In this document: piece by piece, positions 19,553 through 23,297 of the stretch | Numbering within the stretch: position 1 is the stretch's first letter | Layout of the letters: each line of letters starts with the position of its first letter | Source of the DNA: Sphingomonas sp. LT1P40 | GTDB lineage: Bacteria; Pseudomonadota; Alphaproteobacteria; Sphingomonadales; Sphingomonadaceae | Length of the DNA: 64,000 nt | Reading direction: 5' to 3' | Assembly (NCBI RefSeq): GCF_036663835.1 | Contig: NZ_JAXOJT010000001.1 | Coordinates: forward strand, 930,001 to 994,000 | Position numbers and translations under genes: made by a program | Notes under the pieces: model-generated | What the model was told of the DNA's origin: nothing | Databases searched by the model: none | The model's input: only the letters and a program-made list of their open reading frames with translations

Positions 19553-19629
19553 GGGCCTGTAGCTCAATTGGTTAGAGCTGACCGCTCATAACGGTTAGGT
19601 TGCGGGTTCAAGTCCTGCCGGGCCCACCA
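19553..19629 (+). tRNA. tRNA-Ile (anticodon CAU, lysidine-modified type)
   Basis: 77 nt. The acceptor GGGCCTG pairs with CGGGCCC (one G-T pair), the D-loop is AGCTCAATTGGTTAGAGCT, and the anticodon loop CTCATAA has anticodon CAU. The T-arm is TGCGGGTTCAAGTCCTGCC, and CCA is encoded. Overall sequence resembles tRNA-Ile2 rather than initiator or elongator Met, because the acceptor begins G-C and has no initiator mismatch. TilS would convert C34 to lysidine to read AUA. Confidence 0.85.
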
Positions 19630-19633
19630 GCGT

Positions 19634-21217
19634 TCAAGCGACCTTCCGACGTTCGCTCATCTCGTCATTCAGCATTTCGGCCAGCAGAAATGCCAGTTCC
19701 AGCGATTGCCCGGCGTTGAGGCGCGGGTCGCAATGCGTGTGGTAGCGGTCGGCCAGGTCATGCTCGCTGACGTCGATCATGCCGCCGGTGCATTCGGTGA
19801 CGTTCTGCCCGGTCATTTCGGCGTGTATGCCGCCGGCGATCGTTCCCTCGGCGCGGTGGACGGCGAAGAAGCCGCGCACTTCCTCCAATATGCGCTCGAA
19901 CGGGCGGGTCTTGTAGCCGTTCGCGGCCTTGACGACGTTGCCGTGCATCGGGTCGCAGCTCCACACGACGCTATGCCCTTCGCGTTTTACGGCGCGAACG
20001 AGTTTCGGCAGGCCGGCCTCGATCTGGTCATGGCCATAGCGGGTGATGAGCGTCATGCGGCCCGGCGTGCGCGTGGGGTTCAGCGTGTCGAGTAGCCGCA
20101 GCAGTGCATCCGGCTCCAGGCTGGGACCGCATTTCATGCCGATCGGGTTGCCGATGCCGCGCAGGAACTCGACATGCGCGCTGCCGTCGAAGCGGGTGCG
20201 GTCACCGATCCACAGCATGTGCGCGCTGGTGTCGTACCAGTCGCCGGTCAGCGAATCCTGTCGCGTCAGCGCTTGCTCATAGGGGAGCAGCAACGCTTCG
20301 TGGCTGGTGTAGAAATCGGTCGCCTTGAGCTGTGGCACGCTGTCGGCGTCGATGCCGCACGCCTGCATGAAGTCGAGCGCCTCGCCGATGCGGTCGGCGA
20401 CATCCGCGAACTTCTTGCTCCACGGTGAGGAGCCGAGGAAGTCGAGCGTCCATTTGTGGACCTGATGCAGGTTCGCATAGCCGCCGCTGGCAAAGGCGCG
20501 CAGCAGGTTGAGCGTGGCGGCGGACTGGCTGTAGCCCTGAACCATCCGTTGCGGATCGGGGATGCGCGATTCGGGGGTGAAGGCGATGTCGTTGATATTG
20601 TCGCCGCGATAGCTGGGCAAGGTGACGCCATCGATCGTCTCGGTATCGGCGGAGCGCGGCTTGGCGAACTGACCGGCCATGCGCCCGACCTTCACCGTCG
20701 GCAGTTTCGACGCAAAGGTCAGGACGACCGCCATCTGAAGGATGACGCGGAAGGTATCGCGGATGTTGTTGGGGTGGAATTCGGCAAAGGATTCGGCGCA
20801 GTCGCCCCCCTGCAACAGAAATGCTTCGCCGCGCGACACCTTGGCCAACTCCTGCGTCAGCGCGCGAGCTTCACCGGCGAAGACGAGCGGGGGGTAATTG
20901 GCGAGTTGCGACGTTGCGGCGTCGAGCGCGGCCGCATCGGGGTAAGTGGGCAGCTGGCGCGCCTCGGCCTGTTTCCAGCTGTCGGGGGTCCAGCCCATAT
21001 CCTGCTCCAGATTGCGGACATGGACGTACCAGTCCTGATGATGCGCGATGCCGTTGGCGGCGATCTGATTGAGGACGGCGGCGGAGGCGCGCTTGCCTTC
21101 CTCCTCCCAGCCCTGAACCGTCGAACCGGGCGTGTCGAACCACGCGCCGAATGCGGCGCGGGAGAGGGAGCGCTCCTCACGGAAGCGGCGAATTTTGGAA
21201 CCGGCTAATGTGCTCAT
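19634..21217 (-). CDS. Class II DAHP synthase with N-terminal Cro/C1-type HTH domain
   Basis: 527 residues. Residues 74-527 are a complete class II 3-deoxy-D-arabino-heptulosonate-7-phosphate synthase: [14 protein letters not shown] with metal ligand Cys140, [40 protein letters not shown] and [18 protein letters not shown]. It makes the first intermediate of the shikimate pathway. Residues 1-73 are extra and read as an [23 protein letters not shown] then [14 protein letters not shown], with a recognition-helix pattern. The usual enzyme length is about 455, close to the portion from Met74 (start 20998), which has its own GGAGCAGG ribosome site. No stop separates the parts. Two inverted repeats lie upstream (21230-21282). 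Confidence 0.92.
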
Positions 21218-21229
21218 GATGCGACGCCC

Positions 21230-21246
21230 TTACCCGTATGGGGTAA
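21230..21246. promoter_or_regulatory. Inverted-repeat site 1 upstream of the HTH-DAHP synthase gene
   Basis: TTACCCGTATGGGGTAA has perfect 6-bp arms (TTACCC / GGGTAA) around 5 bp. It ends 13 bp before the ATG at 21217 and resembles site 2. This is the kind of site an N-terminal HTH domain could bind to autoregulate; binding is inference. Confidence 0.6.
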
Positions 21247-21265
21247 ATCAACGCAAGCGATTAAT

Positions 21266-21282
21266 TCACCCCGTGTGGGTAA
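21266..21282. promoter_or_regulatory. Inverted-repeat site 2 upstream of the HTH-DAHP synthase gene
   Basis: Read on the minus strand it is TTACCCACACGGGGTGA, matching site 1 in the left arm and five of six right-arm positions. Its centre is 36 bp from that of site 1, about three and a half helical turns. Confidence 0.55.
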
Positions 21283-21368
21283 ACCAGGTTGGGCATACCG
21301 GTTCAGCGGGCCTTAATGCTGCCGCGTGCGTTAGCTACGCATCGGTCTGATTGTGTTTGGAGTGTCCT

Positions 21369-21776
21369 ATGATCCGGATGTTGTTGCTGACGGCGCTGCT
21401 GGCGACACCCGCAATGGCCCAGGAGGCCGCGTCCGGCGAGCCGCCACAGCGCGTCCGCAGCGTCGTGCTGTTTGGCGAGGACAAATGCCCAAAGGCCGAG
21501 AGTGCGGACGAGGTGGTGATCTGCTCACGGCCCGGTGATTCGCCGTTTCGTATCCCCAAGGCGTTGCGCAAGACCGAGCCGGGGCCGGGTGGGACCAGCT
21601 GGGTCCGGCGCGCCGAACTGGTCGATGAAGTGAACCGCGCGGTGCTACCGGGGAGCTGCAACCCGATCGGCAGCTTCGGCCAGAGCGGCTGCACGATGCA
21701 GATGCTGCGTCAGTGGAAGGCCGAGCAGCGCGAGAAGAAGGCGGCCGAAGCGGAAATTCCGGGCGGCGAGGACTAG
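21369..21776 (+). CDS. Small exported protein of unknown function
   Basis: About 135 residues from ATG 21369, with a signal peptide MIRMLLLTALLATPAMA (cleavage before QEA). The mature domain has four cysteines (DKCPKAESADEVVICSRP and PGSCNPIGSFGQSGCTMQML) that could form two disulphides. The C-terminus is charged (EKKAAEAEIPGGED). I do not recognise the family. It lies between the divergent DAHP synthase gene and convergent trpE. Confidence 0.7.
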   Translation: MIRMLLLTALLATPAMAQEAASGEPPQRVRSVVLFGEDKCPKAESADEVVICSRPGDSPFRIPKALRKTEPGPGGTSWVRRAELVDEVNRAVLPGSCNPIGSFGQSGCTMQMLRQWKAEQREKKAAEAEIPGGED

Positions 21777-21779
21777 GCC

Positions 21780-23297
21780 TTATTGCCCGAAGCCGGACTC
21801 GGATGCGCGCGCGACGGCTTCGCGCGCTGCCGCAAATAGTGCGCCCGCCTTGGCCTCGCATTCGCGCTGTTCATAAACCGGATCGCTGTCGGCGACGATG
21901 CCTGCGCCTGCGGTCACGTACATGGTCCCGTCCTTGACGATGCCGGTGCGCAGCACGATGCAGCTGTCCATCGATCCGTCGGGCGAGAAATAGCCGACGC
22001 CGCCCGCGTAAGGCCCGCGCTGATCGACCTCCAGCTCGGCGATGATCTCGCACGCCCGCACCTTGGGCGCGCCGCTGACCGTTCCTGCCGGGAAACCGGC
22101 GAACAGCGCGTCGATCGCGTCGGCATCGGGGCGCAGGCGGCCGACGACGTTCGAGACGATGTGCATGACGTGGCTGTAGAATTCGACGGTGTAGCTGTCG
22201 GTGACTTTCACCGTGCCCGCCTCGGCGACGCGGCCGGTATCGTTGCGACCCAGATCGAGCAGCATCAGATGTTCGGCGCGTTCCTTGGCATCGGCGAGCA
22301 GGCTGGCCTTGTTCGCCTGATCCTCGGCATCGGATGCGCCGCGCGGGCGGGTCCCGGCGATCGGGCGGATGGTGACTTCGCCGTCGCGCACGCGGACCAG
22401 GATTTCCGGGCTGGATCCGGTAAGGGCGAAGCCGGGCAGGTCAAGGAAGTAGAGAAAGGGCGACGGGTTGATGCGCCGGAGCGCGCGGTACAGTTCGATC
22501 GGCGGCAGCGGGAAGGGCGTGCTGAAACGTTGCGCGAGGACGACCTGAAACACGTCGCCGGCCGCGATATAATCTTTCGCTCGCGCGACCATCGCGCCGT
22601 AATCGGCGGCGGAAATGGCAGGTTCGGCGGCAACCGGGATGGCATCGGCGGTAACGCGCGCGGGAAGCGGCGCGGCGGCGAGACGCGCGGCGGTGGCGTC
22701 GAGACGCTCGGTTGCGGTTGCGATCAGCCCATCGGTATCTCGTGTGGCGTCGGGCCACACGGGCGCGACGAGGAACAGCGAATCGGCGAGGCGATCGAAG
22801 ATCAGGATCACCGTCGGCCGCACGAAGATCATGTCGGGCAGGCCCAGCACATCGTTGGCGGCGCGCGGCAGTTTCTCGACCAGCCCGATCGTCTCGTAAC
22901 CGAAATAGCCAACGAGGCAGGCAAGCGCGCGGGGCAGTTCGGGCGGCACGTCCATCCGGCAATCGCGGACAAGGTCGCGGAGCGCGTCGAGTGTCGGCTT
23001 TGCGGCGGGCACGAAGGCGTTGCGGTCGGTGAGCCAGGCGGCATTGACCTCCGCCGCATGGCCATTTGCCCGGAACACCAGATCGGGGGCGAGGCCGATC
23101 AGGCTGTGGCGCCCGCGCACCGCGCCACCCTCGACCGATTCGAGCAGGAAATCGCCGCGCCCCGGCTCGATCAGTTTCAGCGCGGCGGCGACCGGCGTGT
23201 CGGTGTCCGCCAGTTGTTTGCGCCACAGCAGGGCAGGGCGACCGTCGGCAAGCGCCGCGCGGGCCGCTTCGACGCCCTCTACCCCCGCCACATCCAT
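21780..23297 (-). CDS. trpE: Anthranilate synthase component I
   Basis: 505 residues, the normal length. The N-terminal regulatory part holds LLESVEGGAVRGRHSLIGL, whose LLES segment corresponds to the tryptophan feedback site. The C-terminal chorismate-binding domain has AAGDVFQVVLAQRF, LTGSSPEILVRV, RPIAGTRPRG, ERAEHLMLLDLGRND and the end AGAGIVADSDPVYEQRECE. It converts chorismate and ammonia or glutamine to anthranilate, working with TrpG, which is not in the window. It lies 5 bp downstream of the ppiD-like gene on the same strand. Confidence 0.96.
   Translation of the reverse strand: MDVAGVEGVEAARAALADGRPALLWRKQLADTDTPVAAALKLIEPGRGDFLLESVEGGAVRGRHSLIGLAPDLVFRANGHAAEVNAAWLTDRNAFVPAAKPTLDALRDLVRDCRMDVPPELPRALACLVGYFGYETIGLVEKLPRAANDVLGLPDMIFVRPTVILIFDRLADSLFLVAPVWPDATRDTDGLIATATERLDATAARLAAAPLPARVTADAIPVAAEPAISAADYGAMVARAKDYIAAGDVFQVVLAQRFSTPFPLPPIELYRALRRINPSPFLYFLDLPGFALTGSSPEILVRVRDGEVTIRPIAGTRPRGASDAEDQANKASLLADAKERAEHLMLLDLGRNDTGRVAEAGTVKVTDSYTVEFYSHVMHIVSNVVGRLRPDADAIDALFAGFPAGTVSGAPKVRACEIIAELEVDQRGPYAGGVGYFSPDGSMDSCIVLRTGIVKDGTMYVTAGAGIVADSDPVYEQRECEAKAGALFAAAREAVARASESGFGQ

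Follow-up and report, generated by a model that had tools for sequence, protein, structure and literature searches.

Why should 3-deoxy-D-arabino-heptulosonate 7-phosphate (DAHP) synthase, the enzyme at which the shikimate pathway is entered and controlled, carry a DNA-binding domain? The question is raised by a gene found in a stretch of 64,000 nucleotides of the genome of Sphingomonas sp. LT1P40 (contig NZ_JAXOJT010000001.1, positions 930,001 to 994,000), referred to here as the window. A single minus-strand open reading frame (ORF) of 527 codons contains a helix-turn-helix (HTH) domain of the XRE/Cro type followed by a complete class II DAHP synthase. An earlier examination of the letters alone, the sequence-only reading, had proposed that this was a true in-frame fusion and that the enzyme reports its substrate or product state to transcription. 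The fusion is real and conserved, as indicated by domain matches, relatives and codon-level constraint. Regarding its function, our analysis indicates that the gene very probably encodes a self-repressing DAHP synthase that acts at its own promoter.

The fused gene and its two domains

The ORF can be divided into the following parts.

20999..21217, minus strand: N-terminal XRE/Cro-type HTH, residues 1-73 (weak HTH_31 match, AlphaFold2 (AF2) model, conserved in 99 fused loci)
20993..21025, minus strand: variable linker, residues ~65-75 (raised ratio of nonsynonymous to synonymous change, dN/dS, and low values of the predicted local distance difference test, pLDDT)
19634..20992, minus strand: class II DAHP synthase, residues 76-527 with the stop codon (matches to PF01474, TIGR01358 and 5uxm)

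The catalytic part belongs to the class II DAHP synthases by its full-length matches to PF01474 (695.7 bits) and to TIGR01358 (699.9 bits, over a cut-off of 614.7). The best match among structures was 5uxm (E 6.8e-198), the type II DAHP synthase (DAH7PS) PA2843 of Pseudomonas aeruginosa, with 60% identity and only one 2-residue gap between residues 74-517 of the fused protein and residues 8-449 of 5uxm. PA2843 shares the catalytic part, but it has no HTH, and the match starts at its residue 8, the equivalent of residue 74 here. The near end-to-end alignment to PA2843 would place the enzyme in type IIA, the insertion that is absent from type IIB being taken as present and not mapped directly. 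No second DAHP synthase was found in the same genome, leaving the fused enzyme as the sole one, and this together with its conservation suggests that it is catalytically active.

For the N-terminal domain there was just a weak profile match, to HTH_31. The profile search of solved structures gave a best E value of 0.022 with A4 (0.029 for P22 c2) and no sensible match with A1. The AF2 model of residues 1-66 had a mean pLDDT of 92.9 and showed helices at 4-15, 20-26, 31-39, 46-54 and 60-63. This five-helix fold is that of the XRE/Cro-C1 family, and the dyadic operator with two half-sites described below, known as sequence only, is also as expected for this family. We set the HTH at residues 1-66, with its helices within ~4-63 and the recognition helix, GSTVQGWEE, at ~31-39. 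In the AF2 model of the whole protein the pLDDT fell below 50 over residues 68-89, and the catalytic part was poorly modelled (mean pLDDT 65.5).

Using residues 1-75 alone as query we retrieved 66 protein clusters and found PF01474 in all of them (66/66), 60 being of 521-534 amino acids and 6 shorter. We also searched 295 genomes of the genus, 287 of which gave matches, and the full-length fusion (alignment starting at residue 1 or 2 and reaching residue 520 or beyond) was present in at least 117 of the 295; the other matches listed begin near residue 45-75. Two more genomes have a fused gene that is split across two contigs (G012) or broken in its frame (G263). In the latter (L250:312-1715, minus strand) the frame shifts after about residue 415, through either a frameshift or a sequencing error. 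Another genome, G026 (that of L003), has a second fused copy at C1:3913923-3915503, matched in three pieces and ~14 kb from the contig end, while the first lies 19 kb from the start of the same contig; the duplicate is perhaps an overlap of the assembly ends.

We then compared 136 loci, 99 fused (counting L098, aligned from residue 6) and 37 unfused. The median dN/dS was 0.153 for residues 1-63, 0.472 for residues 64-76 and 0.147 for residues 77-518. The values of the two domains are nearly equal, indicating that the HTH is translated and under a selection as strong as that on the enzyme. A trivial explanation would be that the HTH codons were wrongly annotated and form a 5' leader, with translation starting at Met74. 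In its favour, the unfused relatives begin at that same point, with a MAANWAPDSW-like motif in the place of Met74. However, the low dN/dS over residues 1-63, the conservation of the protein in 99 loci and 66 clusters and the lack of conservation of Met74 across fused loci make such an artefact hardly credible, and a start at Met74 only was rejected. The comparison among genomes establishes in this way the fused gene, its domain limits and the purifying selection on the HTH.

Predicted operators at the promoter of the fused gene

If the HTH acts on DNA, where is its target? Upstream of the start codon we detected the following elements.

21230..21246, minus strand: proximal operator (predicted), a perfect 17-bp dyad TTACCC-CATAC-GGGTAA, 12 nt to the ATG
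21266..21282, minus strand: distal operator (predicted), TTACCC-ACACG-GGGTGA, with 1 mismatch, 36 bp upstream of the proximal one
21251..21256, minus strand: likely -35 element TTGCGT, between both operators (by the TTG position in fused loci; putative function)
21229..21234, minus strand: likely -10 element GGTAAG, within the right half-site of the proximal operator, after a 16-bp spacer (putative function)

The proximal dyad, allowing up to 2 mismatches, was found in all the fused loci (99/99), at 8-12 nt before the ATG; 77 were perfect, 16 had one mismatch and 6 had two. With the same threshold a distal copy appeared in 72 of the 99, in 65 of these at 32-36 bp. Not a single one of the 37 unfused loci had the dyad, either within 100 nt or within ~400 nt of the start. 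By chance, a dyad of this kind (at most 2 mismatches, no more than 100 nt from the start) turned up in only 0.2-0.4% of mononucleotide shuffles. Within the window alone the dyads are unremarkable, since 10 of 100 shuffles give at least 2 matches at up to 2 mismatches, and what makes them noteworthy is their presence in 99/99 fused against 0/37 unfused loci. The mean information per position in the fused loci was 1.87 bits in the half-sites, 0.18 in the spacer and 0.07 in the flank, and this concentration in the half-sites argues that the dyad is not residual similarity of related sequences. Among the 22 imperfect proximal dyads, 18 had one half changed and 4 had both halves changed alike, to TTACGC in L087 and L091 and to TTACTC in L068 and L072. 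Within the DAHP synthases the covariation of helix and operator was not clean: L072, with its changed operator, has the standard recognition helix, and L073 and L078 share the helix change of L087, yet they keep TTACCC.

A TTG is found at -10 or -9 relative to the operator in 94 of the 99 fused loci. It fits a -35 box, in which case the -10 box falls inside the right half-site and binding of the HTH would block the promoter. The opposite sign of control, in which an HTH on the distal dyad recruits RNA polymerase, has in its favour that, of the 72 loci with this dyad, most have it upstream of the likely -35. However, the dyad found in 99/99 loci is the proximal one, which overlaps the likely -10 at 8-12 nt from the ATG, the position of a repressor, and we regard positive autoregulation as very improbable.

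The sites found were nearly restricted to this promoter. In the genome of LT1P40 there was no TTACCC-N5-GGGTAA site at up to 1 mismatch beyond the two at this promoter; the pattern read backward, used as control, also gave two sites at this threshold. In 50 fused genomes 69 of the 70 exact sites were at the promoter of the fused gene (tallied by eye against locus coordinates). Since most of these genomes were picked for having an exact proximal site, presence in 50/50 is no estimate, and the result is the location of the sites. The sole extra exact site, in G108, follows closely on the stop codon of an ORF (L249) that looks by eye like gpsA. As for unfused genomes, 29 of 30 had no exact site and the remaining one, G106, had two. 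The backward control gave 9 exact sites in the same 80 genomes. A regulon was rejected, with no further site in the own genome at up to 1 mismatch and only that of G108 by exact match in the 50 fused genomes, weaker sites not having been sought. Of the sequence-only reading, the action of the HTH on DNA has strong comparative support, namely at its own promoter (dyad in 99/99 fused versus 0/37 unfused loci). A wider role of reporting to the transcription of a pathway is not supported as stated, both sites of the own genome being here.

Several genes surround the fused one. The tRNA-Met gene at 19553-19629, on the opposite (plus) strand, ends 4 bp from the synthase stop codon. The next upstream gene on the minus strand, at 21780-23297, looks by eye like anthranilate synthase component I (trpE), and a small plus-strand ORF (21351-21776) lies between it and the synthase gene.

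A second enzyme and the phage relatives

Is this arrangement peculiar to DAHP synthase? The HTH profile also matched the N-termini of proteins of ~775 amino acids in sister genera. They are glutamine-dependent NAD synthetases (NadE), with CN_hydrolase and NAD_synthase domains. The idea of a fusion confined to DAHP synthase was therefore too narrow, a related HTH being found on NAD synthetase elsewhere in the family. A NadE-type HTH query gave 150 clusters, and among the matches listed PF00795 was present in 120/120 and PF02540 in most; the genera named among the listed clusters include Altererythrobacter and Erythrobacter. A repressor of the NadR type consists of an HTH, an NMN adenylyltransferase and a ribosylnicotinamide kinase. 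The NadE fusions have CN_hydrolase and NAD_synthase instead and are not of this type.

L161-L168, L228-L247, L251-L262, L273-L289: HTH-NadE loci, with a dyad just before the ATG

In a set of 40 HTH-NadE loci, 36 had GTATCC-N5-GGATAC (up to 2 mismatches); in the remaining 4 the same place was occupied by a dyad of the TTATC[CT] type. With 7 genomes added, a dyad of 6-5-6 form was found in 47/47 loci (38 perfect, 9 with 5 of 6 positions). Its distance to the ATG was 8-12 nt in 46 loci and 4 nt in the remaining one, and 44 loci had a TTG at -10 or -9. For comparison, none of the 37 unfused DAHP synthase loci had a perfect 6-5-6 dyad within 60 nt, whatever the sequence, and 7 had one with at least 5 of 6 positions; the GTATCC dyad was absent from all 13 unfused NadE loci that we looked at. 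In the 4 variant loci, which belong to a single genus, TQTVFGW replaces SRTVYGW in the recognition helix and TTATC[CT] replaces GTATCC in the dyad, which we read as a single event of joint change. At the level of sequence, the HTH-NadE fusions are an independent replicate of the enzyme-HTH-dyad pattern.

Among the strong matches from the family (397 genomes) and the class (385 genomes) we saw no third fused enzyme; these were frames of DAHP synthase or NadE length (by length, not each opened) or small frames, and weak matches in frames of ~100-350 amino acids were not opened. Some weak matches were discarded. One in G528 (E 3e-6; L335:526-2289, plus strand) is an XRE-type HTH of a different group before a DNA-methyltransferase-like protein, the one in G842 is by eye a mitofilin-like protein, and those in G635 and G124 are chance matches inside other proteins.

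The replicate in NadE bears on another explanation, namely that the dyads serve a different regulator and that the HTH does no more than help the enzyme to assemble or stay stable, which the XRE-like domains in HppE seem to do. The HTH does align with domains of the enzymes HppE and MPnS, where an XRE-like fold also precedes the enzyme domain; these enzymes are unrelated to DAHP synthase and we know of no operator of their own for either. Moreover, other HTHs can use the sequence: in the unfused genome G106 the two exact TTACCC-N5-GGGTAA sites (L207, positions 1501 and 2130) are around a prophage CI-type repressor with HTH and Peptidase S24 domains. Against this, the dyads go with the HTH and are missing without it, the same pattern recurs with another sequence in the NadE fusions and the linker is variable. 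Besides, the own genome has no other site (up to 1 mismatch) and no second HTH of the same family at E 0.01 (15 of 25 first-look candidates scored). We consider that there is very little chance of a separate regulator, and the tie between dyad and HTH points again to self-repression.

Where did the cassette come from? The HTH has stand-alone relatives of ~100 amino acids, without any enzyme. In the 14 that were aligned, four tail cysteines are invariant (14/14) and may bind zinc; the protein of L248 has no such tail. We read the surroundings of four stand-alone loci, L169, L248 and the viral contigs L303 and L332, and in all of them the gene is in the Cro position, that is, divergent from another gene with an XRE-type HTH, CI-like by position, and before a primase-type gene. 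The viral loci L330 and L331 are identical with L303 and L304. These prophage regulators have a related HTH and a similar layout of TTG(C), dyad, ~10 nt and ATG, and they differ in being free-standing proteins with the cysteine tail in place of the enzyme. The entire layout can be seen in L332 (2880-3375), with CTTGC, CTACCC-GTTAT-GGGTAG, 10 nt and the ATG. The dyad is perfect in L332, has 5 of 6 positions in L169, L248, L303, L305 and L306 and 4 of 6 in L304, and a TTG shortly precedes it in all seven loci. A comparison of P0085 with GenBank phages gave no match.

We also built a tree of 60 HTH sequences (25 of the 99 DAHP synthase HTHs, 17 NadE and 18 stand-alone), with few columns and a midpoint root. 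The HTHs of DAHP synthases formed one clade (95/90) within the stand-alone set, adjoining the stand-alone P0074 and P0076 (92/84), and those of NadE a separate one (100/99). Hence, unrelated enzymes appear to have acquired a phage-type cassette of promoter, operator and repressor on at least two occasions, and the source in the case of DAHP synthase was most likely the Cro-type regulator of a temperate phage infecting these bacteria, joined in frame. Quick trees of the enzyme require 6-7 changes of the fused state, only 2 of them forced by well-supported branches. Since the DAHP synthase HTHs make a single clade, the simplest reading is one gain followed by several losses in which the operators were lost too. 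We found no convincing HTH remnants within 700 bp upstream of the unfused genes, and the HTH was absent from 10 outgroup enzymes of other families in the order. The sites of L207 indicate that phage and enzyme operators can have the same sequence, and cross-talk of a prophage with a fused host enzyme is conceivable.

Amount control, ligand control and known systems

How would a self-repressing DAHP synthase work? We infer physical binding, repression and cooperativity as follows. As the enzyme builds up, its oligomer would present paired N-terminal HTHs, and these pairs would bind the 17-bp TTACCC-N5-GGGTAA dyads at its own promoter. The proximal dyad covers the putative -10 region, where a bound HTH would exclude RNA polymerase, and the distal dyad, where present, may aid through cooperative binding. 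More speculatively, the state of the enzyme with Trp or substrate bound might shift the spacing of the HTHs and so couple the state of the pathway to expression. Such control is plausible, though a guess.

Alternatively, repression might scale with the concentration of enzyme with no effect of metabolites, the HTH being a homeostat and not a sensor. The Cro proteins of phages, from which the HTH likely came, need no ligand to act. No result here points to ligand control, and the linker that bears the HTH, variable and modelled with low confidence, gives no hint of tight allosteric coupling. On the other hand, PA2843 is described as a tetramer that only Trp inhibits and whose Trp site is where the subunits of the tetramer meet (PMC6435475), and 5uxm, 60% identical to the enzyme studied here, was solved with Trp bound. 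By analogy, Trp might alter the spacing of the HTHs and the geometry of their pairs. We give control by amount alone somewhat less than an even chance and hold it about as likely as the step involving Trp and HTH spacing.

Enzymes with a DNA-binding domain in the same chain are known. NadR, BirA and PutA are trigger enzymes that control operons or regulons. The fusion described here differs in the enzyme, in a predicted action on its own promoter only and in a cassette apparently derived from phages. Closer in pathway is BzdR, in which an N-terminal DNA-binding domain and a linker precede a shikimate kinase-like domain that has lost its activity, and which controls benzoate genes (PMC3602430). 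Both proteins have a DNA-binding domain linked to a shikimate-pathway enzyme domain; unlike BzdR, the fused enzyme has a complete catalytic family match, is the sole DAHP synthase found and has its own gene as predicted target. We found no report of an HTH-DAHP synthase or HTH-NadE fusion in the literature searched, which was covered partly by top results only and included few subscription journals.

More tentatively, and as less likely than not, a general picture can be drawn. The cassette of a lysogeny switch, with promoter, operator and Cro-type HTH, may be a plug-in device that, once joined in frame ahead of an unrelated essential biosynthetic gene, makes the enzyme its own repressor at once. 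Its history would include at least two captures (DAHP synthase and NAD synthetase) and several losses in which the operators disappeared too, and DNA binding might be tuned by the allosteric state of the host enzyme (Trp for DAHP synthase, nucleotides for NadE).

If self-repression is true, the enzyme would itself regulate how much of it is made, acting on a single target gene and needing no other regulator. The presence of fused and unfused relatives in one genus, plus a second enzyme, makes the origin and use of enzyme-repressor fusions directly testable. It also suggests a simple path, from phage switch to metabolic feedback, for the rise of trigger enzymes.
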